This document shows positions 1 to 64,000 of a stretch of 64,000 nt of DNA, in pieces. The notes under the pieces were generated by a model. The model saw nothing but the letters and a program-made list of their open reading frames with translations, ran no database searches and was not told the origin of the DNA. Position 1 is the first letter of the stretch. Each line of letters starts with the position of its first letter. Origin of the DNA: Branchinecta lynchi (taxonomy: Eukaryota > Arthropoda > Branchiopoda > Anostraca > Branchinectidae); contig JAKZAP010000020.1 in NCBI GenBank assembly GCA_023053575.1, positions 14,627,998 to 14,691,997 of the forward strand. Reading direction: 5' to 3'. The translations under genes were made by a program, and so were the position numbers.

Positions 1-2324
1 TGTTGTTAATAAGGGACTGAGGCTTAAATTTTCTTCCCTTAATAACCCCGTTCCACGTTTCCGGTAGGGCGTACTCGCCTGTATCTCGGTTAATGCCTGC
101 TCGGTTTTTCTTTATCTCAACGGCTTCTCGAATGGTTTGATGGAGTCCGGTGCACGTTGCAAGAATTTGGGCTTTTTCAAAATATACTGAATGGGATGGA
201 TTTTCGAAAATATGTTCTGCAAGTGCAGATTTGAAAGTATAGTTATGACGGTGTCCGTTGGAGAGGGCGTGGTCAATTTCTTGCTCATGCTCTGCAAGTC
301 GTTTTCCGAAAGTTCTCTCTGTCCTTCCTACGTAACGCTTTCCGCAATCACAAGGTATTGAATAAATGCCTCTTTGGTACTGATTTGGGACTTTATCTTT
401 TCCGGAGTTTAGGTAAGACAGCAAAGTATTTTGGGTTCTGTGAAAGACTTGGATGTTGTATTTTTTCAGACTTTTCGACAATTTTTCGGTTACTCCGCGG
501 ACGTACGGAAGGTAAACGCGGGCATTTTTTTCTTCTGCCTCACCGTTACTAGCAGAACTTACAGGATCTTTGGGGGATGAATGCAGCTTCAGTCGTCTTC
601 TGATGATCTGTTCAACCAGTTGAACGGGGTATTTGTTTCCAAACAGGACGTCCCGAATGTGGCAAAGTTCGTCATCTAGGAGATTTGTGTCGCAAATTTT
701 GATGGCTCGGTCAACTAGTGAGATAACTACTCCGCGTTTCACATATTCTGGCTGGTAAGAATCATATGGAAGGTATCGGTCGTTGTGGGTGGGTTTCCTG
801 TAGACTGAGCAGACAAAACTTCCTTCACTGTTAGCAATCAAGACATCTAGGTACGGCAGCTTCTGTGCATCATTTTCAAATTCAATCGTAAACTGGATAG
901 TCGGTTGAATTGAGTTTAAAGTGTCAACGAAACTCACAATGTCTGTTTTTTGGCCTTCCCATGCTGTGAAACCATCATCAACGTAACGTTTGTAGAAACT
1001 TGGAACCATCGGCGCGATACTGAAAGCGATTTCTTCAATTTTCCTCCGTTAATTCGGCGAGTCTCTGCGAAATAGAGCTCCCCATCGCTGCTCCTTCATG
1101 CTGCCAGTAGAATTGCCCCATGTAGATGAAATATGTTGATTCCCAAACAAGTTTAAAACAATCTAGTATTTGGCTTACAGTTAGGGGGGTTTTGTCTGCC
1201 AGTTCGGGATATTTCTCTAGTGCTTCTTTTAGGGCATCCAGGGTGAAATCTTTCCTGAGACTGGTGAACAGGGATACAGCATCAATGCTTGCTTTTTGCG
1301 TTTCTTTGGTGACAGGGTATTTTCTTAACTCTTGGACAAAATCAATTGAATTTTTGATGTAATGCGGCCCTGAATCTAGGAGTGGCCTTATTAACGAAGC
1401 TAGAAATCTGTCTAATTTCTTAGTTGGGGCTCGAACGTTTGCTACTATTGGGCGAAGGGGTCTACCTGTTTTGTGCACTTTAACTACTCCATAAAAACGC
1501 GGTGCTACCGGCCCGGTTACTTTTAGGAACTGTTTCTGGGATTTGGAAATAGGGAGACTTTCTACGAGGTTTCTTACTTTTTTGTCAATGGATGGGGTTG
1601 GATCACTTGGTATTGGGGTGTACACATCTTTGTCTGCTAGGAGGTTTCGAATTTTCGCGTCGTTCTGGTCAAGGACTACAATGGCGTTACCTTTGTCAGC
1701 TTTTGTGGTGATGAGAGATCCGTCTTTCCTTAGGCTCTTCAGGGCTTGCAATTCTTCTTTCGGGAGGTTCGGTTCTGGAGGGATGTTGATTCGGGACTGT
1801 AGCAAGTGGGCTGCATCTACTCTTGCTTTTTCAAAATCATCTACTTTTGCATCTTCGTGGAAAAGACCTGTCTCAAAACTTGCTACAAATTCTTCTACTG
1901 GTGGTTCACGGGGCGCGATGTTGAATTTACATCCATGGGACAATGCATTAATTTGTGTTGGAGATAAAGTTTTGGAGCTAAAATTTAGTACGGAAGGTCC
2001 AGGGAGAACTTTCGGACAGTAAGCCTGGGTTTTACTGTAGTTTTTGTTTTGTAGGCGAGAATATTTTTTCCGCAGCTTTTCGCGGTGTTCCCAACAGGAA
2101 TTTTCAAATCTAGCAGAGATTACTTTTTCGATTTTTGGCTTGTCATGATCATCAATATTTTCCATGAGGGTTTCTTTGAGATGGTCGAATTCGCGTGATG
2201 TCATCGCCCATTTTGACCTTAAACCGGCAATCGTGTCTTTAAGGAGAATCTGCGAAATACGTTGCTCCACTTTCTTCTTGTTCCTAGAGTCCGGGTGTCC
2301 AATGTTGTGAAGCATTATAAACAA
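1..2324 (-). pseudogene. Penelope-like retroelement, RT plus GIY-YIG, one frameshift
   Basis: Encodes a Penelope-type reverse transcriptase joined to a C-terminal GIY-YIG endonuclease. Reading leftward from an ATG at 2324 there is an N-terminal region, then ADKGNAIVV, YGVVKVHK, RPIV, SIDAVSLFTS (motif A aspartate) and AAMGSSIS. The frame closes at 1035 just after AELTEEN. One extra A in the A-run near 1036-1040 explains this: without it the frame continues as EEIEEIAFSIAP, reaches YVDD (motif C, about 980) and stays open to base 1. The continuation contains RGIYSIPCDCGKRYVGRT (about 370-320), the GIY-YIG signature with a Cys pair. The 3' end lies outside the window. Seen: motifs and frameshift. 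Known: this RT/GIY-YIG pairing defines EN-positive Penelope-like elements. Inferred: a recently inactivated copy, or an assembly error in a homopolymer. Confidence 0.95.
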
Positions 2325-3883: not shown

Positions 3884-4336
3884 ATAAAACTTTTGCTTTT
3901 GCGACGAACTAGTTGTTCGGCGAGAAAATGGTTTTCACCGCCGTGTTCAGAATGTCTTCTTACCTCTAAATCTACCATTTAGTCAACTTCAAATAAATCT
4001 TTTACTTTTAACAATTTTTTCCGGTTTTTGACGGATTCCGGACGAACTACTTGTCCGGCGAGGAAACGGTTTTCGCCATCGTGTTCAGCGTGTCTTCTTA
4101 CGCCATAATCGACCATCACATTAGCTGTTTAAAAATATTTTGTTTGCTCCTTATTCAGACCCCCTCCCCCACCCCTAAATTTAGGGCTACAGAGCCTGTC
4201 TACGAAGAATCCTCACTTCAGGTTTCATCAAAATATCCCATTCCCTTCGAGAGTTATCGTGCTAACAGTCGGACAGACGGACAACTTTTGCGATGTCATT
4301 GGTATTCACTTACCTTTTGGGATCGCAAAAACAGGC
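3878..4336 (+). repeat. R1 family repeat, 3' part
   Basis: Holds units with the pattern AACTTTTRCTTTT, TTTCCGG, GGATTCCGG, ACTTGTCCGGCGAG, TTCAGYGTGTCTTCTTAC, then the family end: CATCAAAATATCYCATTCCCTTCGAG, GACGGACAACTTTTGCGATGTCAT and a TTTTGGGATC boundary. The 99-codon frame across it is incidental, because its sequence follows the repeat consensus in other copies. Confidence 0.7.
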
Positions 4337-8431: not shown

Positions 8432-9495
8432 AACAAGACCAAAGGTTTCGATGGGATCCCAAAAATGTAATATTTACAGACAATCGGGTTTTTGTAGCGG
8501 TCCAATGGTAATCATCGGAGAAGACGAAGTTCAAATATGGATTCATCATGTGAGTTTACCCTTATAGCCTGCGTCATGTCTACTTTGACGAAAGTTCCTG
8601 CCTTACTTCTGCCAAATTTCCGGTTTCAGCCGGATTCCGGGCGAACTACTTGTCTTGCAAAAAATTGAAGTTCAGAAACAGATTCAGCGTAGCCATTCCA
8701 TCCATATCTCCATATTCAAGTTCACATAAAACTTCAACTTCTAACAAATTTTCCAATTTCAGCAGGATTCGTGGTGAAATGTGTCCAGGTATAAAATTAT
8801 TGTCATACACGAATTCAGCATGCCTTCTTACCCGTAAATTGAACACGAATTCATATAAAACTCTTACTTTTAGCAGATTTTCCGGTTATGGCCGGATTCC
8901 GGGCGATCTACTTGTCCGGCGACAAAATAATTTTCATATTCGGATTCAGCATGTTTCACTGTCCTGAAATCGAACCTCTAATCAACTTCAGATTAATCTT
9001 TTATTTTTGACAAACTTTCCGGTTTGGGCCGGATTCCGGCCGATCTACTTGTCCGATGAGAAAATCATTTTCATTTCGGATTCAGCATGTCTCCTTACCC
9101 CTAAATCGGATATCTAATCAACTTCAGATAAAACTTTTACTTTTGACAAACTTTCCGGTTTTAGCGGATTCCGGGTCAACTACTTGTCCGGCGAGGAAAT
9201 GGTTTTCATATTCGTGTTCATCATGTCGTCTTTACCCCGTAATCAACTATCTCATTAGCTTTTAAAAAATATTTGTTTCGCCCTTAATTTGAAACCCCTC
9301 CCCCTCCCCTAAATATGCAGCTATCGTTTCCATCTACGAACTCGACGTTTCCCTTGACTCAGAAGAGTCCTCACACCAAGTTTCATCAAAATATCTCATT
9401 CCCTTCGAGAATTATCGTGCTGACAGATGGACGGACTGACGGACAACTTTTGCGATGTCATAGGTATGACATCGTCATAGGAATCCCAATAAAAC
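8432..9495 (+). repeat. Near full-length R1 repeat next to exon A
   Basis: Starts AACAAGACCAAAGGTTTCG then GGGATCCCAAAAATG and ends near CATAGGAATCCCAATAAAAC. Between are about four diverged tandem units of roughly 125 bp (TTTCCGGTTTnnGCCGGATTCCGGGCGAnCTACTTGTCCG..TTCAGCATGTC), then the CATCAAAATATCTCATTCCCTTCGAG and GACGGACAACTTTTGCGATGTCAT end. No protein coding seen. It stops about 30 bp before the 3' splice site of exon A. Confidence 0.8.
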
Positions 9496-15659: not shown

Positions 15660-15735
15660 CAGGCCCTGCGATAGCTAATTGGTTTGAGTGTCGGTACGTT
15701 AAGCCGAATGTTGCGGGTTCAAATCTCGCTTGAGG
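15660..15735 (+). tRNA. tRNA-like sequence, possibly a SINE head
   Basis: Contains an A-box-like TAGCTAATTGG and a B-box-like GGTTCAAATCT at proper spacing. TCGGT/GCCGA can form an anticodon stem around ACGTTAA (GTT at the anticodon position), and GCGGG/CTCGC a T stem. The acceptor stem pairs poorly and position 33 is C rather than U, so a functional tRNA is unlikely. A decayed tRNA copy or tRNA-derived SINE fits better. Confidence 0.4.
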
Positions 15736-15873
15736 AGTTTTGTTTTTCAGTACACTACTTTATTGTAATAGCGGTGTTTTCCAAGAGGTTTAAGGTATTC
15801 TGGTAATTCTGTACGAAGCCCAAACCTCTCTAAATTTTTATCAGTATGCCGCCTCCCGAGTGGCGCGAGGGGA

Positions 15874-18900: not shown

Positions 18901-18985
18901 TTTTTGAGCATGTTTGACAGTGCAAAACGAATACGTCAGCTGAATTTTATTCGAGTTACATTTCGACCCTTCTTCTGATAGCTGC
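18901..18985 (-). mobile_element. Decayed fragment of a hammerhead element
   Basis: TTTGACAGTGCAAAACGAATACGTCAGCTGAATTTTATTCGAG then TTTCGACCCTTCTTC. This matches the 3' half of the minus-strand hammerhead units (compare 63800-63865), cut off before the CTGAAGAG box. Confidence 0.6.
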
Positions 18986-21915: not shown

Positions 21916-22299
21916 TCAACCACCTTTTTCAATTAAAAATTTCTTCAACTTTCTTTTAAACAAAATTAAGTTACCGGCCGCTCTAATACTATCCGGGAGA
22001 ACATTCCACGCTGAAACAGCGATGTTTCTAATAGCGAAACCTGACCTCGTTGAGTGTCGGATTTCATGAACCAGATTGTTAACATTTTTGGTAGCATGTT
22101 CATGGTAAAAATAATTCTGGGAAAATGTATTCCAGAAGTACTCAGGGGACAACTTATTTATATACTGAAATACAAAAACTGATAGCTGGTAGTCACGCTG
22201 TTGTCCAACAATCAGAACACCAAGCTTTTTATAACGTGCAACAGTATTTTCACACTGGTGCAGTTCACCGAGCACTCTCATTGCTTTGTTTTGCACCAT
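21916..22299 (-). pseudogene. LINE C-terminal fragment
   Basis: 127 codons: MVQNKAMRVLGEL, KKLGVLIVGQQRDYQLSVF, HEIRHSTRSGFAIRN, WNVLPDSIR, FKRKLKKFL. This follows the usual order of the non-LTR retrotransposon polymerase C-terminus (QNKA.R.L, TR, WN.LP..IR, FK..LK..L). The RT catalytic domain is absent, so it is a 5'-truncated copy. Confidence 0.8.
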
Positions 22300-22732
22300 T
22301 TGGATCCTTTTGGAATTACTTATGAAGTTACTGGCCCATACCGGATGAATTGATGACTTTTGATTTATATTTATTTATATAAGTTTATTTATATTTTATA
22401 CGTATTGTTTAAATGTAACCGACATAAGTCAATGATAAATCAAAAAGGGTTATTTTTCGTTGACGTCCTATGCTATTCGTTGTAAAAGAATATTTGGAAA
22501 ATATAATGAATTTGAATCTATCCCCCAAGACGTCTATTTTCTAATACATTCATTAAAAATGGCATACTAGATTATTTTAGCTTTACTTCTGCTGTCAAGA
22601 GAGTTGACTACTTTAAAAATTGTCACGTAAAAAGAAAAAACGTGGCAAGCCTGATAATCAGTGTAATGGTAATATTTTAGATGGGATGCACTTCTAAAAT
22701 GTAGATACTCGGGAACGAGAATAAATAGAAAT

Positions 22733-26777: not shown

Positions 26778-28475
26778 TTATGGCACTTGCCTTCCGGCCA
26801 AGTGCCATGTACCGATCACTTTTCCGTCGGTCGGTTAGTCCGGTGTTTGCGAGTTAGGGTACTTCCAGATAAGCAAGGATGATGAAACTTGGCAGGCGTA
26901 TTACGGACCCGACCAAACTAAGTTGGAAATAGTCACTTACGCGATCCAACGATCGTGGGGGGAGGGAGGGGAGCCAAAATCCGGAATTTAGTTAATTTTC
27001 GAACGGGTTATCGGATCTTAATGAAATTTAATATTTGGAAATTCAATATTTATGACATCGCAAAAGTTGTCCGTCTGTCCGTCCATCCGTCCGTCTGTCC
27101 GTCCGTCTGTCAGCACGATAACTCTCGGAGGGAATAAGATATTTTGATGAAACTTGGTGTGAAGATTCTTTGTTTCAAGTGTAAGGTCAAGTTTCTTGAT
27201 GGGCTCTGTAACCCTACATTTAGGGGTGGGGAGGGGGTTCAAATTAGGGGTCAAACAAAATATTTTTAAACTGCTACTGTGATAGTCGGTTATGGGGTAA
27301 GAAGACATGCTGTACGAATATGCAAAACATTTTCTCCTCCGACAAGTAGTTCGTCCGGAATCCGGCAAAAACTGGAAAGTGGTTAAAAGTAAAAGTTTCA
27401 TTTTAAGTTGATTAAATGTTCGATTTAGGGGTAAGAAAACATGCTGACCACGATGGTGAAAACCATTTTCTTGCCGGACAAGTAGTTCGTCCGGAATCCG
27501 GCAAAAACCGGAAAGTTAGTTAAAAGTAAAAGTTTTATTTGAAGTTTATTAGATGTTTGAATTAGGGGTAAGAAGGCATGCTGAACACGATGATGAAAAC
27601 CATTTTCTCGCCAGACAAGTCGTTCGTCTGGAATCCGGGAAAAAACGGAAAGTTGGCTAAAATTATAAGTTTTACCTGAAGTTGATTTGATGACAGACTT
27701 AGGAGTAAGAAGGCATGCTGAACACTTATGTGAAAAGCATTCATACCCCGACAAATAGGTCGCCCAGAATCCGGCAAAAACCGGAAATTTCGTTAATAGC
27801 AAAAGTTTTATTTGAAGTTGATTAGATGACAGATTTAGGGCTAAGGAGACGCTGAGTCTGTATATGACAATCATTTTTCACCCGGACATATAATTCGTCC
27901 AGAATACGGTTGAAACCGGAAATTTGTTTGTAAGTTGAAGTTTCATTTGTAGTTGATCAGATGTCCTTTAGGACATAAAGAGATACGGTGACTTCGCTTC
28001 TTAGTTTTCTTTTGTTTGCTGGACAAATAGTTCGCTTGGAATTCGGCCGAAACCGGAAATTTGGCAGAAGTAAAGCAGGAAGTTTCGGTCAGTATCGTCA
28101 AAAGAGATATGGCTGATAGAGGTATATCTGAACTTGGTTTTCTCAGATGGTTAGCCTGGCGAAGACTGGATCTGGCGAAGACAAGACCCAGTTGCCTGGA
28201 TCAAATACTAGATTTTGGGGATCCCATCGAAACCTTGGGTCTTGTTGCTTCAAGAGTTTTGATTACAGCCGACTTTCTAGCGCCCCTAAAGTGCTTATCA
28301 TCACAGCCAAATGCATTATCAAACGATAAGTTCTTGTAGATTTCCAAGGACCCCTTATCTCATGGGTTTTGCTCACAAATAATCACAACAAACCCACGAA
28401 CTGAAGAATTCCTACTTTCATCCTCTGACCCAGCCTTGCAATTGCCATATGAGCTTCCAGCTCTTGTTTATGTGG
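26778..28475 (-). repeat. R3 repeat nested in a T1 element
   Basis: Left end ATGGCACTTGCCTTCCGGCCAAGTGCCAT forms a hairpin; right end GCCATATGAGCTTCCAGCTCTTGTTT matches the end at 36250. Between are one GATGAAACTTGGCAGGCGTAT unit and a long R1 insert. Confidence 0.65.
27051..28253 (-). repeat. R1 repeat, long copy
   Basis: Starts ATGACATCGCAAAAGTTGTCC with a stretch of CCGTCTGTCCGTC, then several tandem 120-130 bp units (GGGGTAAGAAGACATGCTG..CCGGAATCCGGCAAAAACCGGAAAG) and ends GGGATCCCATCGAAACCTTGGG. The open frames of 127 and 149 codons on the minus strand follow the tandem unit and show no recognisable domain. Confidence 0.75.
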
Positions 28476-30596: not shown

Positions 30597-31840
30597 CTAA
30601 TATACGCCTTCATGGGTGCTGTCTTGTTCAGGTTTCCAGTTGAATCTCCACTGTTTGCCTGACCACTCCTTGTCCAAATGTTGTTTGAAGCTATTTGTTG
30701 TTTGGCAGGTAACAGTGGAATCTGCTAGCGCGTTCCACAAGTTGATCGACCTACTTGTGAAGAAGTTCTGTGCATGCCGTGTCAGTACAGGCCTCTTCTT
30801 CAGCTTTTTTGGGTGGCCCCTGGTGGTTCCTCCTGTGTTTGGCACGAAAATGTTGGGTGGGATGTTGCTGCTCAAATTCTTGTACACAGCTATCATATCA
30901 CCACGATTTCTCCTGTAGGTCATTGTGGGGATGTTCAGGGCTTTGAGTCGTTCTGGGTATGGGGTGCTTTGCAATCCTTTGACCATTTTCGTTGCACGTC
31001 GCTGGACACCTTCGATAATGCGTTTGTCCATCTCGTATTGCGGGTATGTATGTATGTATTGTACATGGAAAGCCCAACGGGCCATGGTACAAAAATATTA
31101 TGCAAATCAAATACTAACTACAGATTCAACACACTTTCTGAATACAAAACAAAGAAAACTAACTACACAGTTAAACACTTTAAAAGAACAAAGACCTGTG
31201 TCTCAGCCCCACCTGAACAAACACTGCCAGGTTTTTAATAGTAGTAAATGATCGACCCCCCATCAGACCATTTAGCCACTCCTCATCGCCTGTCTGTCTC
31301 TGAAGCTGCTCCAACCTTAAATCATTGAGTTCCTGGCAATATGACATGAAGTGGTCCACACTCTCTTCCGGCTCCCCACACATAGGGCACGAGTAAAGAC
31401 CATCTACCGCATGCTAGTGAGACTCCAACTTCCAGCTTCGGCCTGACGAGCGACGTGTATAACTTGCTGATCACCTTAGGACTCCTACTGCTTACAGTTC
31501 GCTTGATGACTCCAAGTGCTCGATTAGCACTACTGACGACGTTTTGCGTGTGCTTGTGAAACTTGAGCTCGGCATCGATAAGCTCACCAAGGTCCCTTTC
31601 GCAGTTGCTGCTCTCGATTACTTGTCTTCCGTGGGGGGTATCCATGGTGTATTGGTTGTGGGGGTTGTTATGCCCAATATGAATGACTTTGGTCTTCTTT
31701 GCATTGAACTTAGTTAACCAAGTGTCTGCCCAGGCTGTGAGTAGGTTTAGGTCCGCTTGGATACTCCTATGGTCGGCTGGTCCGAAGAACCCACCATAAT
31801 TCAAAACGTAGGCAGGCTCTTTACCTAGAAATAAACTATC
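30597..31840 (-). pseudogene. LINE RT C-terminal half (CR1/L2-like), interrupted
   Basis: Reading leftward: IQADLNLLTAWADTWLTKFN, KVIHIG, CERDLGELIDAELKFHKH, VISKLYTSLVRPKLEVG, then a break of about 320 bp, then KRIIEGVQRRATKMVKGL, YPERLKALNI, RRNRGDMIAVYK and INLWNALADSTV. This is the region after the YxDD box of a CR1/L2/jockey-type polymerase. The break is another LINE end. 5' truncated near 31840. Confidence 0.85.
31086..31410 (-). mobile_element. Second LINE 3' end inserted in the first
   Basis: Encodes CPMCGEPEESVDHFMSYCQE and LRLEQLQ, ending VQVGLRHRSLFF and a stop at 31180, then a short 3' UTR that ends GGGCTTTCCATGTACAATAC followed by (ATAC)n. The Cys-Cys-His-Cys box matches those at 25600 and 55220. 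It splits the host LINE between LVRPKLEVG and KRIIEGVQ. Confidence 0.75.
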
Positions 31841-32166
31841 AGAGAAGTTCGGTCAGATGATGTTGTTCTTTCCAAATTTTGTCACTTTACATCAGATCCG
31901 GTCATCACCATTTACCTAGTAAGGAAAACTTCCTACCTGTTAGTTCCCATGAGTAGGAGCTGACGGATGGGTCAGTCGTCTTACTATCCCTATACCGACG
32001 CGAACAACTGGATGAACACGTTATTAGAAATTACGAAAGTTTCCGTTTTCTCCGGATTCCGGCGAATACGGCCGAACCATCAGCTTGATGGGAAAAGTAA
32101 GCTATTGGATGGATTTCTCATGTCTTTAGATAGTAAGATGATGATGCTAATATATGTCTTGCAAAG

Positions 32167-32393
32167 ACATATTCAAAGTCAGCTACGATGCTTTTGCAGC
32201 GATATTTCGGTCCTTCTTGGCAAGGGTCCTCGTCAGGAGGTCAATATGATACAGATTGACAGCCTGACAACGATTCATGCCAAGAACGACCAACATATCG
32301 CTGCCAAACGATTGTAGCTGACGTATCCGTTTTACGCATTATCTGAACGTATGTTTCAAAGTCAGTTGGGCTCAAGGAATATTTGTCTTGCAA
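32167..32393. mobile_element. Palindromic hammerhead element, 12-bp duplication
   Basis: TGTCTTGCAAAG lies on both sides (32155-32166, 32394-32405). The left arm holds a minus-strand hammerhead core (32205-32236: CTGACGAG, stem II, GAAA). The right arm is a decayed partner (CTGACAACG..CCAACATATCGC) followed by GTAGCTGACGTATCCGTTTTACG and the family end GTTGGGCTCAAGGAATATTT. The left end is shortened. Confidence 0.85.
32205..32236 (-). ncRNA. Hammerhead ribozyme core, stem I decayed
   Basis: Minus strand: CTGACGAGGACCCTTGCCAA then GAAGGACCGAAA. All conserved core bases are present. Stem II closes with one changed pair. The stem I strand upstream (GACCTC instead of GACAGC) no longer pairs well with GCTGAC, so activity is doubtful. 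Confidence 0.65.
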
Positions 32394-42212: not shown

Positions 42213-42302
42213 AGCTAGATTTTATTATCTAATTAAATGTAGCTGACTTATCCGTTTTGAACCGTCAAATATGAATCGCAGTCAGCTTGGACTGAAGGAA
42301 TA
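42213..42302 (+). mobile_element. Hammerhead-element fragment without the core
   Basis: GTAGCTGACTTATCCGTTTTGA then CCGTCAAATATGAATCGCAGTC and the end AGCTTGGACTGAAGGAATAT, matching the right arm and tail seen at 48820-48850 and 51470-51495. The CTGANGAG box is missing. Confidence 0.65.
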
Positions 42303-42399
42303 TCTATAGAATAATTTAAAGAGTTGAAATGGTGATTAAAGTTTTGAAGTAAAATAAAATATATACGATATATAGATACATCGATAAATGTATCGGTCA

Positions 42400-44508: not shown

Positions 44509-44675
44509 TATCATTTATTTCCCATGGAAAACAAACAGATGGAGTACAAGAGAGAAAAAGAGACAAAAAACAGAAAACGTTATATACCTACACGTGACTG
44601 ATAAACAAAACAACAAATAAATATTCTTTGAGCCCAAGCTGACTTTGAAACATTTATTCAAACAATGTTTACAAC

Positions 44676-44751
44676 GGATACGTCAGCTATGATTTTTCAT
44701 CAGCGATATTTCGGCCCTTCTTGACAAGGGTCCTCGTCAGGCTGTCAATCC
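44676..44751 (-). ncRNA. Hammerhead ribozyme, type I, left arm
   Basis: Minus strand: GGATTGACAGC (stem I), CTGACGAG, GACCCTTGTCAAGAAGGGCC (stem II), GAAA, TATCGCTGATGAAAAATCATA, GCTGACGTATCC (stem I return). Stem I pairs over about ten positions with one A-A mismatch and one bulge. Predicted cleavage follows ATA before GCTGAC. Stem III is only two sure pairs. Confidence 0.8.
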
Positions 44752-44896
44752 TCTAGATCAACTGCGGGGAAGGAATCAAACCTGTAATCAGATTTGATTC
44801 CTTCCCCGCAAACCTGAATTCCTTCAAACCTGATTACAGGTTTGAAGGAATCAAACCTGTAATCAGGTTTGATTCCTTCCCCGCAGTTGATCTAGA

Positions 44897-44972
44897 GGAT
44901 TGACAGCCTGACGAGGACCCTTGCCAAGAAGGGCCGAAATATCGCTGATAGAAAATCATAGCTGACGTATCC
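44897..44972 (+). ncRNA. Hammerhead ribozyme, type I, right arm
   Basis: Stem I GGATTGACAGC, core CTGACGAG at 44908-44915, stem II ending GGGCC, GAAA at 44936-44939, stem III region to 44960, stem I return GCTGACGTATCC. Predicted cut between 44960 and 44961. Confidence 0.82.
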
Positions 44973-45224
44973 GTTGTAAACATTGTTTGAGTAAAAACAA
45001 CAAATTCACAAAGACGGGCACACCTACTGCTTCAGCACAGAAGCCCAAGGGTGGGAAGCAACTTTATAATTATCCCAATCCAAGCTGCATTGAACCAAAA
45101 CGACATTTTTCAACTAATTCTGGAAGGCGGACGTATTCCAAGATTTTGCTTTTGATACAAGAGACTGTAATTGGTCGATAGCTTTTGCAAAGGTCTGTGT
45201 CTTTCCCTCGCTTGACTTTTAATA

Positions 45225-48438: not shown

Positions 48439-48650
48439 CCAGTGGACCCGCAAGTCCATTTGCATCTACAAGGGATCATGAGCGACAGTTATTTTTCTTT
48501 ATTTTGGTATTATTTGTTTTTATTTTTCTATCTGGTAGTATCTATTTATTTCCATAATTCTAACATTTTGAATTATGCAATTCAACATTTTGATATTTCT
48601 ATGTCAGTTCCGCTTGCTAATCACCACATTTGCAAGATGAAGGGGTGTGA

Positions 48651-48851
48651 TAAATATTCCTTCAGCCCAAGTTGACTGCGAATCATATTTGACGCAGCAA
48701 AACGGATAAGTCAGCTACATTTTATTAGAGCTAATGAACTTTTCTTTTCCAGCTTGAGCGGCTTGAGCCTGAAGAGAACCCTTGCCAAGAAGGGCCGAAA
48801 TATAGCTCTAATAAAATGTAGCTGACTTATCCGTTTTGCTCCGTCAAATAT
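48651..48851. mobile_element. Hammerhead element, CTGAAGA subtype
   Basis: Flanks GAAGGGGTGTGA and GAAGGGATGTGT (10/12). The left arm is AATATTCCTTCAGCCCAAG..GGATAAGTCAGCTACATTTTAT and the right arm mirrors it to CCGTCAAATATG. The hammerhead is present only in the right arm; the left arm skips from GAGCTAATGAAC to TTTTCCAGC. Confidence 0.8.
48760..48832 (+). ncRNA. Hammerhead ribozyme, CTGAAGAG core
   Basis: GGCTTGAGC, CTGAAGAG (48769-48776), stem II AACCCTTGCCAAGAAGGGCC, GAAA (48797-48800), then TATAGCTCTAATAAAATGTA and GCTGACTTATCC. Here stem III can form four pairs (AUAU with AUGU), better than in the CTGACGA copies. Stem I is interrupted by an internal loop. Confidence 0.75.
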
Positions 48852-49544
48852 GAAGGGATGTGTCTGATTAGTCAATATAATCTGACTAAGTCAATAAACA
48901 ATTAGGGTACGAGAATGTCTGACTTGTTACTGTAAGGTAAAGGGGGATTTAACTTTCTACTTTACCGAATAATGTTGGCCGGTATGAGGATTTTACTGAA
49001 AGAGTAGGTAGGCTACAGTTGTGTTGAGCGGTGACAGTAATCATCCGTACCGACTGGTAGGCTAATGGTTATCTCCCATTTCCTACCATATGAAGCAACT
49101 TGTTAGCAGAGGCATCAGGTATGGTGAGGGGGGGGGGGGGGGGCTCCCGATTTTATCAGACAGTCGATTTTTTGTTTAAGCACAATCAATTTGTTTAAAC
49201 ACTGTCGATTTTTGGTATCCCAAAACGTAAGTGGAGGGACACCTATGACATCGCAAAGGTTGTCTGTCTGTCCGTCTGTACGCGCTATAACTCTGGAAGG
49301 GAATGAGTTATTTTGATGAAACTTGATGAGAGGGTTCATTGGGTTAAGGGTTAGGTCAAGTTCGTAGATGGGCTCTATAGCCCTACATTTAGGGGTGGGG
49401 GTTCAGATTAAGGGACAAACAAAATATTTTTAAACAGCTAATGTGATAGTGGATTATGGTGTAAAAAGACATGCTGAGCACGATAATGAAAACCATTTTC
49501 TCGCCGGACCAGCAGTTCGTCCGGAATCCGGCAAAAAACGGAAA

Positions 49545-49706
49545 AATATTCTTTGAGCCCAAGCTGACTTTGAAACATTTATTCAAACAATGTTTGCAAC
49601 GGATACGTCAGCTATGACAACCTGACGAGGACCCTTGCCAAGAAGGGCCGAAATATCGCTGATGAAAAATCATAGCTGACGTATCCGTTGCAAACATTGT
49701 TTGAAT
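49545..49706. mobile_element. Short hammerhead element, perfect 12-bp duplication
   Basis: AAAAAACGGAAA at 49533-49544 and 49707-49718; the R1 consensus has one such block, so this is a real insertion site. Left end AATATTCTTTGAGCCCAAGC, arm up to CGTCAGCTATGA, then ACAAC and a plus-strand core, and the right arm to CATTGTTTGAAT. The left hammerhead and palindrome centre are deleted. Confidence 0.92.
49622..49683 (+). ncRNA. Hammerhead core lacking the stem I partner
   Basis: CTGACGAGGACCCTTGCCAA, GAAGGGCC, GAAA (49650-49653), TATCGCTGATG, CATAGCTGACGTATCC. The upstream strand is now ATGACAAC, so stem I is weak. Confidence 0.7.
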
Positions 49707-50452
49707 AAAAAACGGAAAGTTCGTTAAAAGTAGAAGTTTCACTTGAAGTCGATTAAATGTTCGATTTAGGGGTAAAAAGACATATTTGAACACGATGGTG
49801 AAAACCATTTTCTCGCCGAACAACTAGTTCGCCCGGAATCCGGCCAAAAGCGGAAAATTTGTTAAAAGCAAAAGTTTGATTAGATGACAGATTAAGGGGT
49901 AAGAAGAGAGGCTGATTCTGTATATGCCAATCAATTTTTAACCCGATATATAATTAGTCCGGAATCCGGTTGTAACTGGATTTTTTTTTTAAGTCAAACT
50001 TTTATTCAAAGTTGATTAGATGTTCTTTATAGGGATTTGAGTGCTGGATTTGTTTCTGAATTTTCTTTTTTCTGGACTAGTAGTTTGCTCGGAATTCCGG
50101 CGAAACCGGAAACTTGGCAGAAGTAAAGCAGGAAGTCTCGGTCAGTATCTTCAAAATAGATATGGCTTATAGAGTTATATCTGAACTTGGTTTTCTCTGA
50201 TGATTAGCCTGTGCGAAGACTGGATCTGGCGAAGATAAGACCCTAATGTCTGAATCAAATATTAGATTTTTGGGATCCCATCGACACCTTTGGTCTTGTT
50301 ACAAACGCAGTCGATTTTGCTGAAAAACAGTGTATTCTTTCTTAAAAACAGTATCTTCTTCTGAAAAACAGTAGGTGAAAATTACTATAGCCAGTCGGTA
50401 AATACCTCCCCCCCCCCCAAAAAAAAAAAGATTTCGGCTAGTAACGCCTCTA

Positions 50453-51063: not shown

Positions 51064-51300
51064 GCAATGGCTCAAGTTGGAAAAACGAACTTTGTGGGAA
51101 ACACCACAGGCAAGGGTCCTCTTCAGGCTCAAAACCGCTCAAGTTGGAAAAACGAACTTGTGGGAAACACAACCTGTGGTATTTTCCACAAGTTTGTTTT
51201 TCCAACTTGAGCGGTTTTGAGCCTGAAGAGGACCCTTGCCAAGAAGGGCTGAAATATAGCTCCAATAAAATTCAGGACTATCCATTTTGCACCATCAATA
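51064..51300. mobile_element. Rearranged hammerhead element, CTGAAGA subtype
   Basis: GGCAAGGGTCCTCTTCAGGC, GCTCAAGTTGGAAAAACGAAC, GTTTTTCCAACTTGAGCGG and GCCTGAAGAGGACCCTTGCC form an inverted repeat. The left piece GCTCAAGTTGG..CACCACAG is duplicated. Plus core at 51223-51254 reads CTGAAGAG..GGGCTGAAA, where C11.1 is U, giving a G-U pair below stem II. Stem I return is mutated (CAGGACTATCC). Confidence 0.7.
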
Positions 51301-51462
51301 TACAGCATAGATAGATAGAATAATGTATTTCAAAAGCCCACGTGCCATATACACAAACAAACAAAAACAAAAATATAACTTAAACAATCAGACTCCTTCT
51401 TAACTCTAAAGATTTATCTATGTACACCCCACTCGAGTAATAACGGTAGGGTTACTATTTAT

Positions 51463-51605
51463 ATGATTCGCAGTCAGCTTGGGCTGAAGGAATATTTATT
51501 CAAACAATGTTTAAAACGGATACGTCAGCTATTATTCTTAGTCAGCGATATTTTGGCCCTTCTTGGCAAGGGTCCTCGTCAGGCTGTCAATCCTCTGGTT
51601 CAAAC
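51463..51605. mobile_element. Hammerhead element, left arm only
   Basis: GATTCGCAGTCAGCTTGGGC and GAAGGAATATTTATTCAAACAATG precede GGATACGTCAGC. It looks like the tail of one element joined to the left arm of another. The right arm is missing. Confidence 0.65.
51518..51593 (-). ncRNA. Hammerhead with a core mutation
   Basis: Minus strand: GGATTGACAGC, CTGACGAGG, stem II, then AAAA where GAAA is expected (G12 to A), and GCTGACGTATCC. Stems are intact but G12 is the general-base position, so it should be inactive. Confidence 0.7.
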
Positions 51606-52915: not shown

Positions 52916-53283
52916 TAATGAAACAAGTCTCTACGGCACTTATGTTGAAGGTGTCAGTAAACTGACAAGAGATCATACGCTAGTTAACTAAACTAAACAA
53001 CGCTCAAAACTTAAAGGACCCGTCGTACCTCGAGGCGCTACTAGCCAAAATGTTTGGGGGAGGGGGCAAGGTATTTACGACTGTCTGGTCATTTTTACCT
53101 ACTGTTTTTTTTTTGCAGAAGAACCGGCTGTTTGTAAGAAAAAATTAACTGTTTTAACGAAAAACCAATTGTTTTGAAGAAAAATCGACCGTTTCCAAGA
53201 AAAAAATCGAATATTCTTACGAAAAATCGCTGCGCTTTGCGCCGGCTCGTTTTTTTTTATATTTATTCAAACAATGTTTACAA

Positions 53284-53358
53284 CGGACTTCAGCTATGAT
53301 TCTTCATCAGCGATATTTCGGCCCTTCTTGGCAAGGGTCCTCGTCAGGCTGTCAATCC
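53284..53358 (-). ncRNA. Hammerhead ribozyme, left arm
   Basis: Core intact (53316-53347) with GGATTGACAGC upstream. The stem I return has lost bases (GCTGAAGTCCG instead of GCTGACGTATCCG), which shortens stem I. Confidence 0.7.
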
Positions 53359-53387
53359 TCTGGTTCAACTTCGGGGAAGGAAATTGA

Positions 53388-53463
53388 GGATTGACAGCCT
53401 GACGAGGACCCTTGCCAAGAAGGGCCGAAATATCGCTGATGAAGAATCATAGCTGACGTATCC
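53388..53463 (+). ncRNA. Hammerhead ribozyme, right arm, intact
   Basis: GGATTGACAGC, CTGACGAG (53399-53406), GACCCTTGCCAAGAAGGGCC, GAAA (53427-53430), TATCGCTGATGAAGAATCATA, GCTGACGTATCC. All core bases and both stem I strands are present. Confidence 0.82.
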
Positions 53464-53587
53464 GTTGTAAACATTGTTTGAATAAATGTTTCAAAGTCAG
53501 CTTGGGCTCAAAGAATATTTATTTTTTATAGACTGGCCGACAACACAACCCTCCCTCTCTCCCATAGGTGACGCCCCTGGTCGTACC

Positions 53588-55679: not shown

Positions 55680-56760
55680 GGTCATTAACTATGAGGCAAA
55701 AACTAAACGCGCGGTTTAAATTTTAAAGGTCATCAGTCAACGCCTTCACTTAAGTTAGTACTACCATAAATTTCAAGGCAGATCAGTAAAACATATGTAA
55801 TGTGAAAACTCTCAAGAGGCACTTCTGTTCAGTTCTGTAATGTGTGGATAAAGCTATTCGGCCATAAGAAAATGAAAAGGACATCAACCACTAAGGAACA
55901 ACCAGACATGGGTTTAAATTTTAAAGGTCATCAGTCAACGCCTTCACTTAAGTTATTACTACCATAGTTTCAAGACCGATCAGTAAAACATATGTAGTGT
56001 GAAAACTCTCAAGAGGCACTTCTGTTCAGTTCCGTAATGTGTGGATAAAGCTATTCGGCCATAAGAAAATGAAAAGGAAATCAAACACTAAGGAACAACC
56101 AGGCATGGGTTTAAATTGTAAAGGTCATCAGTCAACGCCTTCACTTAAGTTAGTACTACCATCAATTTCAAGACCGATCAGTAAAACATATGTAATGTGA
56201 AACTTCTCAAGAGGCACTTCTGTTCAGTTCTTTATTGTGTGGATAAAGCTAGTCGGCCATAAGAAAATTAAAAGGAAATCAAACACTAAGGAACAACCAG
56301 GCATGGGTTTAAATTGTAAAGGTCATCAGTCAACGCCTTCACTTAAGTTAGTACTACCATCAGTTTCATCAGTTTCAAGACCGATCAGTAAACCATATGT
56401 AATGTGAAAACTCTCAAGAGGCACTTCTGTTCAGTTCTGTAATGTGTGGATAAAGCTATTCGGCCATAAGAAAATTAAAAGGACATCAAACACTAAGGAA
56501 CAACCAGACATAGGTTTCAATGTTAAAGGTCGTCAGTCAACGCCTTCACTTAAGTTAGTACTACCATCAATTTCAAGACTGATCAGTAAAACAAATGTAA
56601 TGTGAAACTTCTCAAGAGGCACTTCTGTTCAGTTCTTTATTGTGTGGATAAAGCTAGTCGGACATAAGAAAATTAAAAGGACATCAAACACTAAGGAAAA
56701 ACCAGACATCGGTTTAAATTTTAAACCTCATCGCTCAACGCCTTCCCACAAGGGAGTGCC
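55680..56760 (+). repeat. Tandem array, about 198-bp unit
   Basis: GTCATCAGTCAACGCCTTCAC recurs at spacings of 198, 197, 198, 207 and 198 bp (reference points 55731, 55929, 56126, 56324, 56531, 56729). The 207 interval holds a 9-bp internal duplication (CATCAGTTT). Units share TGTGGATAAAGCTATTCGGC and AAGAGGCACTTCTGTTCAG, with few differences, so recent expansion is likely. No ORF spans the units. Confidence 0.9.
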
Positions 56761-62344: not shown

Positions 62345-63762
62345 GTGAGAATTAGACCTGAACGTTACTTAGACTACGAAATACGCTTGATGACTAACTT
62401 CGTACTGATAAAGAGTCGCCAATTGCCAAATGAAGAGCCAGAAATGTCACCACAGCAAATGCTGTTGATTGGTTTACATAGTAATTGAGTCAGTTTTGCT
62501 GATTCATTTGGATGACGTTTTTGTTCTTCCATTGGATCACTATCATGTTGGTCCTATAGAGTGTATAGAGAGTGCATATGGAGTGGTCATATAGACCGTA
62601 GCCGCATAAAATTTTAGGGGATGGTTGCTTGTGATGAATAGTTGCCTGAAACTATCGCGCTGGATTTGTAGACTAGGATTTATCCATTTCTTTTTTTTTC
62701 TCTAGACTTTCCTGTGGACGGCAGCCATTTGCGTTTCTTAAAATGGCCTTTCTTCCGTTCTATTCCGCCGTTTGTGACTCACGGTGTTTTTTTTTTTAAC
62801 TTGGAACATTTTGGTTTGTAGGCTACTCGCAGGTACTTGTTGCTTCCTTTATGAAATTCGAACCCCATAAACCGATTATGAGCGTACACTAGGGGTCGCA
62901 GTCCAGTAGGGTCGGGCTTCACCTAACTTGGTTTGGCGCAATAGATTTTTTTATATAACTTAAAAACTAATAAATCAGATTGTAATTTTTGTGGCTATTC
63001 CTCCATCCGTTAATGACGTTAATTTTAATCTACTTTTGCCCACTTTTAACTATTCATATCACCTAACTTTTGAAAATAAACCCATATTTTATTTACTATT
63101 CTACCCCCTAATATTTGGAAATTAATTCTATATATTTATCTACTCTATATTTGGAATATTAATTATATATCTAAAGTATAAGATCGCATAGTAATAGCTC
63201 AGATAATAGTCTAAGTAAAATAAAGTCAAATTAATGCCGATCATTCTTGAATGTTTTGCCTTTTTCGCTGAGTTGTATTCGCGTGCCCTCACGGCTAGGT
63301 TGCGGCTTCTAAAGAAAGCTTTTTCATGATCCATGATCATTAATTACTGTTAATACATTTGAGTTAAGCGTAGCTATTGCGAAACTGTTTGGCGCCTTGA
63401 AAAATACTCTTGATGACTAACTCTTCTTGCCGATGCAAAATCGCCCTGTACCTAGCGGCAGAGCCGGAAGCGGTATCACAGCTACTCTCAAACATCGCCG
63501 TGATTGGTTAAATCACGATTGAGTTGTTGAGTTTGAATCGTTGGTGCTACGTTTTCTCTGTCTTCAATGAAGTTGACGTTGTAAAAACGAGCCTCTGAAC
63601 ATCCAAATTAGTCAAATAAATCTCCGAGAACAGGGCTTTTTCTTAAGGAAGAAGAAGAAGAAAACTAAAACTGTGCTGCCCTTCCCAGTTTTTCGCAGCG
63701 ACGTCCCGCGAATTTTCATGATTTTTCATGACAATCTGAAGGTAGTACGCGAAAGATTTACA
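62345..63762. other. Intron DNA after exon D
   Basis: Mostly AT-rich. 63410-63560 is related to 32990-33080 and 47510-47660 (GATGCAAAATC; CGGAAGCGGTATCACAGC; GAGTTTGAATCGTT), a dispersed repeat. GAAGAAGAAGAAGAAA at 63650. Confidence 0.4.
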
Positions 63763-64000
63763 AATATTCCTTCAGCACAAGCTGACGGCACATAATTTTT
63801 ACGGATAATGTCAAAACGGATACGTCAGCTTAATTTTATTTAGAACTATATTTCGGCCCTTCTTGGCAAGGGTCCTCTTCAGTCTCAATCCGGAGAATGG
63901 ACGTCCTGAAAAACGAACACATTAAATTCATTTTCCAGCTTGAACGGGTTGAGCCTAAAGAGGACCCTTGCCAAGAAGAGCCGAACAAATTCCGCTGACA
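63763..64000. mobile_element. Hammerhead element cut by the window end
   Basis: Left end AATATTCCTTCAGCACAAGC, GTCAAAACGGATACGTCAGC, a minus-strand hammerhead, the centre GAATGGACGTCCTGAAAAACG, then a mutated plus-strand partner (CTAAAGAG..GCCGAACAAA) reaching base 64000. Confidence 0.8.
63817..63892 (-). ncRNA. Hammerhead ribozyme, CTGAAGAG core
   Basis: Minus strand: GGATTGAGA, CTGAAGAG, GACCCTTGCCAAGAAGGGCC, GAAA, TATAGTTCTAAATAAAATTAA, GCTGACGTATCC. Core at 63851-63882 is intact. The base next to the core changed from C to A, weakening the first stem I pair. Confidence 0.7.

Follow-up and report, generated by a model that had tools for sequence, protein, structure and literature searches.

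Several described systems resemble the locus reported here. Penelope of the rotifer Adineta vaga, according to excerpts of PMC3846280, carries head-to-head inverted pLTRs, an optional tail of ~31 bp on one of them, palindromes at the junctions, and duplications of 8 to 10 bp; as excerpted, this 2013 report favors self-priming on an antisense template as the origin of inverted pLTRs and calls for further experiments. For PAc, the Poseidon Penelope-like element (PLE) of Anolis carolinensis, both target strands are cut and extended, reverse transcription starts inside the RNA, and the tail corresponds to the interval between two reverse transcription start sites; no start-site difference was seen between the strands in vitro (PMC11167929). 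Mutants of the PAc hammerhead still insert in vitro, its ribozyme showed no cleavage unless the PLE protein was present, and the 2024 report leaves later insertion steps to be validated (PMC11167929). Minimal type I hammerheads, without helix III, are known in PLE pLTRs (excerpts of PMC7761336 and PMC6155905), and metazoan retrozymes are direct tandem repeats that give circular RNAs of 170 to 400 nt (excerpts of PMC7229834).

Within the window (the whole 64-kb stretch of Branchinecta lynchi DNA that was analyzed), a 375-bp palindromic insert at 44619-44993 is bounded by exact 12-bp direct repeats. It is an ORF-less pair of head-to-head pLTRs with a 12-bp target-site duplication, and almost certainly a PLE insert. 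Its features, together with a coding fragment at the start of the window, are listed below; L073 is a coding copy of the family in the same genome.

44607..44618: left target-site duplication, AAAACAACAAAT (exact 12-bp repeat)
44619..44788, minus strand: left arm, a pLTR with tail, antisense on the plus strand (94.7% identity over 171 nt to the pLTR and ORF start of L073)
44619..44653, minus strand: PLE tail, the ATG and first ORF codons (MFQSQLGLKEY; by translation, the same residues opening the 863-aa frame of L073)
44701..44744, minus strand: minimal hammerhead motif of the left arm, predicted cut 44705^44704 (ten-arm alignment, covariation, stem I pairing)
44789..44863, no strand assigned: center in which the arms are joined, with pLTR 5'-end fragments repeated in both orientations (a 42-nt direct and several inverted repeats; centers of other inserts)
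44864..44993, plus strand: right arm, a pLTR without tail, sense (91.7% identity over 132 nt to the pLTR of L073)
44904..44947, plus strand: minimal hammerhead motif of the right arm, predicted cut 44943^44944 (fold of a 66-nt unit)
44994..45005: right target-site duplication, AAAACAACAAAT (exact 12-bp repeat)
1..2316, minus strand: coding PLE fragment of the same family, cut through by the window start and without 5' pLTR and ORF start (97.2% identity over 2,324 nt to L073)

The initial annotation of this locus had proposed a mobile palindromic insertion with one shared 12-bp duplication and near-identical inverted arms. The first of these claims is borne out: a scan of the flanks found the same exact 12-bp repeat again, a length reached by 0.17% of 3,000 random window pairs, and the alternative of two independent insertions is contradicted. 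As for the arms, complementarity is indeed high (91% over 165 nt, 44640-44804 against 44844-45008), but they are unequal in length, with 35 to 36 nt on the left having no counterpart on the right. The inner end of the left arm reads GATTACAGG on the minus strand; that of the right arm reads CAGG and so lacks the first few bases of the usual TTACAGG. Among the matches listed, nine genome copies matched insert positions 1-169 to 1-171 at 99%. The 5' end of the pLTR is itself partly palindromic, and the whole element folds as a rod (-275 kcal/mol).

Like Penelope of Adineta vaga, this family has inverted pLTRs, one tail, a pLTR and tail that run into an ORF, a junction palindrome, and short duplications (excerpts of PMC3846280). 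In those excerpts on the rotifer, however, inverted pLTRs are mostly found together with an ORF or with captured sequence, duplications are 8 to 10 bp long against most often 10 to 14 bp here, and no hammerhead is mentioned (PMC3846280). Tandem pLTR-ORF units, a hammerhead near the ORF start, and internal reverse transcription starts that define a tail are shared with PAc, whose hammerhead overlaps the ORF start and is cut 26 bp inside the ORF, whereas the cut predicted here lies 50 nt before the ATG (PMC11167929). The insert is also short and noncoding with type I hammerheads, as metazoan retrozymes are (excerpts of PMC7229834), but in place of direct tandem hammerhead repeats forming cut-to-cut units, by which retrozymes are recognized, there is an inverted pair, and most arms of this family begin elsewhere than at the cut. 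The initial annotation knew of no description of this architecture. Its parts are in print, namely inverted pLTRs with one tail (excerpts of PMC3846280) and hammerheads in PLE pLTRs (excerpts of PMC7761336 and PMC6155905), so that it is an arrangement already known for PLEs and not a new class of mobile element. In the open literature searched, no description was found of inverted pLTR pairs that lack an ORF and have a hammerhead on either side.

Assignment to PLEs was anchored by L073, which comprises a pLTR, the hammerhead motif, an ATG, and an uninterrupted 863-aa frame directly after pLTR and tail. This coding frame and the nearly identical fragment at the window start identify the arms as PLE pLTRs. 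Against P0001 the tail peptide gave a short match that is weak alone (roughly 0.1 to 0.2 after 112 comparisons); that the tail is the start of the PLE ORF is settled because L073 carries the same residues. In some genome copies the tail likewise runs on as an open frame. Part 1038-2360 of the coding fragment had 112 homologues among the matches listed, most carrying PF00078 and PF28514 and three PF01541 (GIY-YIG), while direct Pfam scans of the 863-aa frame and of the window ORFs detected no significant family. L073 shows both tandem and head-to-head arrangements, and tandem or partial-tandem copies of the family comprise L073, L053, L062, and L047. A search of the genome (575,737,328 bases, 216 contigs) with the ORF start, in which the best 40 of 728 candidates were scored, returned 42 listed matches, 34 of them identical over at least 99 nt; these identical matches point to recent activity of the PLE. 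No relatives were found in viral contigs (exact-pattern scan and PLE protein scan) or in phage DNA, the PLE N terminus retrieved only the query itself, and PDB sequences gave zero matches.

BLAST and inspection revealed nine further related pieces in the window. Two subfamilies were distinguished at N7 (C/A), at H17 (C/A), and by one compensatory pair in stem I.

Piece I, 18909..18974, plus strand: decayed family fragment without a readable tail peptide
Piece H, 32168..32383, minus strand: decayed inverted-pLTR insert with an exact 13-bp duplication
Piece A, 42231..42306, minus strand: second-subfamily tail and arm end, without hammerhead core
Piece C, 48650..48852, plus strand: second-subfamily member (GAGC/GCTC stem I), flanking repeat of 10 bp with 1 mismatch
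Piece D, 49545..49706, plus strand: 162-bp member with one hammerhead core and a broken stem I, exact 12-bp duplication AAAAAACGGAAA, empty site shown
Piece E1, 51109..51298, plus strand: partial palindrome of the second subfamily
Piece E2, 51460..51603, minus strand: pLTR arm fused directly to the tail of the other subfamily, core without G12
Piece F, 53262..53522, minus strand: second inverted-pLTR insert, both hammerhead motifs intact, flanking repeat of 12 bp with 1 mismatch
Piece G, 63762..64000, plus strand: second-subfamily inverted-pLTR insert, cut through by the window end

Every two-ended element carries 35 to 36 nt on one arm that are missing from the other. Of nine window pieces whose tails were translated, six read MFQSQLGLKEY, MIRSQLGLKEY, or MNRSQLGLKEY; that of G reads MCRQLVLKEY, that of H is frameshifted, and I has none. 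Over codons 4 to 11 of those six tails, a count that excluded G and H, all 4 variable sites (4/4) are third positions. Piece D is embedded in a dispersed repeat, and its joined flanks equal the empty site of the paralogues at 27214-27542 and 4184-3905. The fusion of arm and tail across subfamilies in E2 suggests template switching between them. Other features of the window include a dispersed repeat with an internal tandem period of ~137 bp (27294-27964, 8850-9252, 3905-4184, and 49383-49906); a tandem array at 55713-56745 with five copies of a ~198-bp unit (91% matches); minus-strand frames at 21919-22374, 30600-31097, and 31325-31852 that by eye resemble fragments of other non-LTR retrotransposons, with no significant Pfam hit; and a tRNA match at 15665-15737 just over the gathering score (34.8 versus 29 bits).

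A hammerhead-like motif in each arm, as initially annotated, was confirmed. Each arm combines CTGACGAG with GAAA and a GC-rich stem II that has a single bulged A; stems I and II are present along with the catalytic core CUGANGA...GAAA. Eight such motifs occur in the window against 0.2 expected, a number reached in none of 100 shuffles, and a looser pattern raised the count to 10; a descriptor scan requiring 4 contiguous stem I pairs found five window sites, compared with 0, 0, 1, 0, and 0 in shuffles. An alignment of ten arms (leaving out the degenerate right arm of G and left arms of H and E1) showed TAT, then C/A, then GCT/GTT downstream of GAAA. Stem III is absent, with only A15.1-U16.1 and two bases between them, and for this reason Rfam covariance models, to which the initial annotation had looked for confirmation, miss the motif: there were zero hammerhead matches in the window at gathering level or at E<=10, and none in the L073 pLTR.

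Stem I bears on the position of the cut. With gaps scored as unpaired, a 4-bp stem I formed with the GCTG directly 3' of GAAATATC accounts for 36/40 base pairs over the ten arms, against 30/40 for the distal strand; because the proximal GCTG pairs best, cuts are predicted at 44943^44944 (plus strand) and 44705^44704 (minus strand), and the originally annotated site at 44960/44961, which relies on the distal stem, was rejected. The minimum free energy structure of a 66-nt unit excised around the right motif consists of stems I and II, with pair probabilities of 0.86 to 0.87 and 0.92 to 0.98, respectively, but longer stretches that include either motif show no folding advantage over shuffles (z of -0.45 and -0.95). 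The compensatory stem I pair is C-G in 7 of the 10 arms and G-C in 3. At least one doubly changed pair also arose in 388 of 500 shuffles, no more than shuffling yields, but the pairing percentage and covariation score were reached by only 4 of 500. Between the subfamilies, the hammerhead segment has diverged less than the remainder of the arm; in five comparisons that overlap one another, Fisher p ranges from 0.00007 to 0.016. The core and four stem I pairs are intact in 6 of the 10 aligned arms (both arms of the insert at 44619..44993, both of F, and those of C and E1); G12 is absent from the core of E2, and stem I is broken in D, G, and H. The motif, a putative ribozyme, fits the minimal PLE-type hammerhead. 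Minimal type I hammerheads of PLEs are reportedly the subject of work by Cervera and de la Pena from 2014 and by Lunse et al. from 2017. The lack of helix III beside the core is shared with the minimal PLE hammerheads (excerpts of PMC7761336 and PMC6155905); unlike those reported, the motif here has a family-specific sequence and occurs in two copies of opposite orientation. An AUAU that could pair between two hammerhead copies may be a further feature shared with them.

Genome-wide copies and their flanks had been put forward as a check on the initial annotation. A likeness search across the genome returned 2,321 candidate places, of which the best 40 were scored, and 43 inverted-pLTR inserts (44619..44993 included) were assembled: 20 by likeness to the insert at 44619..44993 (itself included), 9 via the tailed arm in the same search, and 14 via the ORF start, all drawn from the best 40 of 2,321 and of 728 candidates. 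Insert ends were set by hand from BLAST hits. Left out were L005 (too complex), places already seen in another view, loci that had no inverted partner, coding copies whose outer ends lay beyond the stretch considered at that locus, and older second-subfamily pairs flanking L009, L011, L026, L038, L040, and L053. Of the 43 inserts, 33 lie between exact duplications of 10 bp or more, most commonly 12 bp (12/43), and the other 10 lack them; 0.5% of 3,000 random pairs reach 10 bp. Judged from sequence, the insert family is mobile, on the evidence of these duplications and of the empty site of piece D.

Exactly one outer end is tailed in 42 of the 43 inserts, although 29 of the 43 were found via the tailed arm or the insert at 44619..44993 itself and tail-less inserts could thus be missed. 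The ratio was 20/20 for inserts found by likeness and 9/9 for those found via the tailed arm, groups that are biased because their members were found via a tail, and 13/14 for the fairest group, found via the ORF start. Where a duplication of at least 10 bp is present, the insert is one-tailed in 33/33 cases; L055, the one exception among the 43, is tailed at both ends and lacks a real duplication. Outer ends of the short arms lie at query positions 93-98 in 36/42 inserts and at 87-103 in 41/42, the ATG starting at query 95. Inner ends inside the query were seen in only 6/42 short arms (L028, L033, L035, L036, L037, and L041). In a quartet test of 37 inserts, for which seven having an arm of <80 nt were dropped, columns grouped arms by insert in 782 cases, by left or right side in 3, and across in 7 (8 distinct columns); when sides were defined as tail or no tail, the counts were 782, 6, and 4, and for six inserts in the window they were 80, 0, and 0. 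The two arms of one insert thus share the same source variant, and a two-armed unit with separately evolving arms was rejected, since columns group arms by insert and not by side.

The inner ends offer a view of the RNA from which the arms may derive. When 148 arm copies (identity of at least 93%) were compared, the inner ends of 67 fell upstream of the ribozyme, on a single pLTR base or the one after it, at [A/G]TTACAGG. The preceding base is T in 6/6 copies that continue upstream into a preceding tandem unit. In 82 nontandem copies, the start base is A or G in 74, and G precedes it in 50 of those 74, events that are not all independent because both arms of some inserts and junction bases were counted. 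Reverse transcription to a capped RNA end can leave an extra G, and such a G is present on the left arm of the insert at 44619..44993. We infer that the PLE has a capped RNA starting at [A/G]TTACAGGTTTG in the pLTR. Starts at the predicted hammerhead cut number 2/148: one, in a 165-nt tandem locus, is clean, and the other, in L055, is not. This suggests that most of the templates read here had remained uncut at the hammerhead. In the clean case (L070, L071, and L075, all one locus), a 165-nt tandem of direct repeats, each unit opens immediately after TATC, precisely where the cut is predicted, and extends 113 nt into the PLE ORF; the locus looks like repeated use of ribozyme-cut RNA and is consistent with the predicted cut site. 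A recurrent junction between direct pLTR copies, at or near GGACAAGTGAT and 113 nt into the ORF, was observed in L033, L034, L053, L065, and L061; in the anole PLE, reverse transcription starts 111 to 118 bp into its ORF (PMC11167929).

These ends also bear on the initial annotation. Its suggestion that competition between the long hairpin and the ribozyme fold could time cleavage or circularization is not supported: 67 of the 148 inner ends lie upstream of the ribozyme and 2 at its predicted cut, and ribozyme mutants of the anole PLE insert unimpaired in vitro (PMC11167929). It also held that any transcript carries a hammerhead and the complement of one; if transcription starts at [A/G]TTACAGG, the insert's own transcript would run outward from either arm with one hammerhead and no complement, and the long hairpin would form in read-through RNA only.

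The best explanation, to which we assign a probability of about 75% for identity and mechanism jointly, is an ORF-less PLE insert made by cDNA synthesis from both cleaved target strands, primed close to the 5' end of the PLE RNA, and by joining of the two cDNAs. The PLE RNA would start, capped, at [A/G]TTACAGG in the pLTR, and the PLE enzyme would cleave the target's two strands with an offset of about 12 bp. From each 3' end so exposed, cDNA would be primed internally near the 5' end of the RNA, at the tail site for one strand and ~35 nt upstream for the other, and each cDNA would run off at or near the capped 5' end, where the two would be joined. With both start sites in the 5' portion of the RNA, only pLTR would be copied, with a hammerhead in each arm; one pLTR stops close to the ORF start codon, and the other extends ~35 nt into the ORF, which gives the tail. 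The hammerhead may process the PLE RNA. The cutting and extension of both strands and the internal starts of the anole PLE speak for this mechanism (PMC11167929). Several observations weigh against it: the two insert ends differ here, while the anole enzyme in vitro showed no start-site difference between strands (PMC11167929), L055 has two tails, 10 of the 43 inserts lack a duplication of at least 10 bp, and in the insert at 44619..44993 the center is more complex than a simple joint and the right arm does not reach the full TTACAGG. A stricter version, to which we give even odds, is an ordered two-primer reaction on RNA of the same source, in which the tail site is obligatory for one strand and the upstream site for the other, so that every complete insert is one-tailed. 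This strict one-tail rule is the most novel claim made here and departs from the in vitro anole data.

Other origins were weighed against priming from both target strands. Self-priming, in which PLE nucleic acid folds back on a palindromic end and copies itself to give head-to-head pLTRs, has been invoked for rotifer Penelope, whose junction palindromes were so interpreted (excerpts of PMC3846280), and the partly palindromic pLTR 5' end and the source variants common to both arms of one insert speak for it here too. Fold-back, however, should hold the inner point constant and duplicate the outer end, whereas the outer ends fall at two different preferred sites in 42/43 inserts (many chosen for a tailed arm), filler lies between two complete arm ends in several centers (L010, L014), and 6/42 short arms keep the outer end without the inner part, an argument that is thin because it rests on these six; we consider self-priming unlikely. 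A retrozyme or viroid-like replicon, whose rod-shaped RNA bears ribozymes in both polarities and is cut, circularized, and reverse transcribed, would account for the rod fold of the full element (-275 kcal/mol) and for the 165-nt tandem units that start exactly after the predicted cut. Yet arms at the cut (2/148, one unclean) are set against 67/148 at one upstream base or the next, the arms do not evolve as separate sides, and a coding PLE explains the same arms, which leaves the replicon a very slim prospect. The palindrome and the narrow range of duplication lengths would suit a DNA transposon of the foldback or MITE-like kind, which has long inverted repeats, but arms that are PLE pLTRs and run into the reverse transcriptase ORF in L073 contradict it and make it exceedingly improbable; a TIR transposon was rejected also because the ends are not inverted repeats of each other, the 35- to 36-nt tail being on one side only. 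Two separate insertions lying head to head by chance deserve equally little credence: some arms do stand alone, with no inverted partner (e.g., L039), but one exact 12-bp duplication outside both arms here, and shared duplications of at least 10 bp in 33/43 inserts, contradict that reading.

Up to about 2,300 candidate places in this genome (best 40 scored), with short copies whose ends can be read, are enough to test two-primer synthesis against fold-back. Specific predictions for the PLE enzyme follow from the single tail of each insert, the preference for certain outer ends, and the extra G. If the ordered two-primer reading is true, mirror-image pLTR pairs would be the direct product of both cDNAs reaching the capped 5' end of the RNA, without fold-back or ribozyme cleavage.
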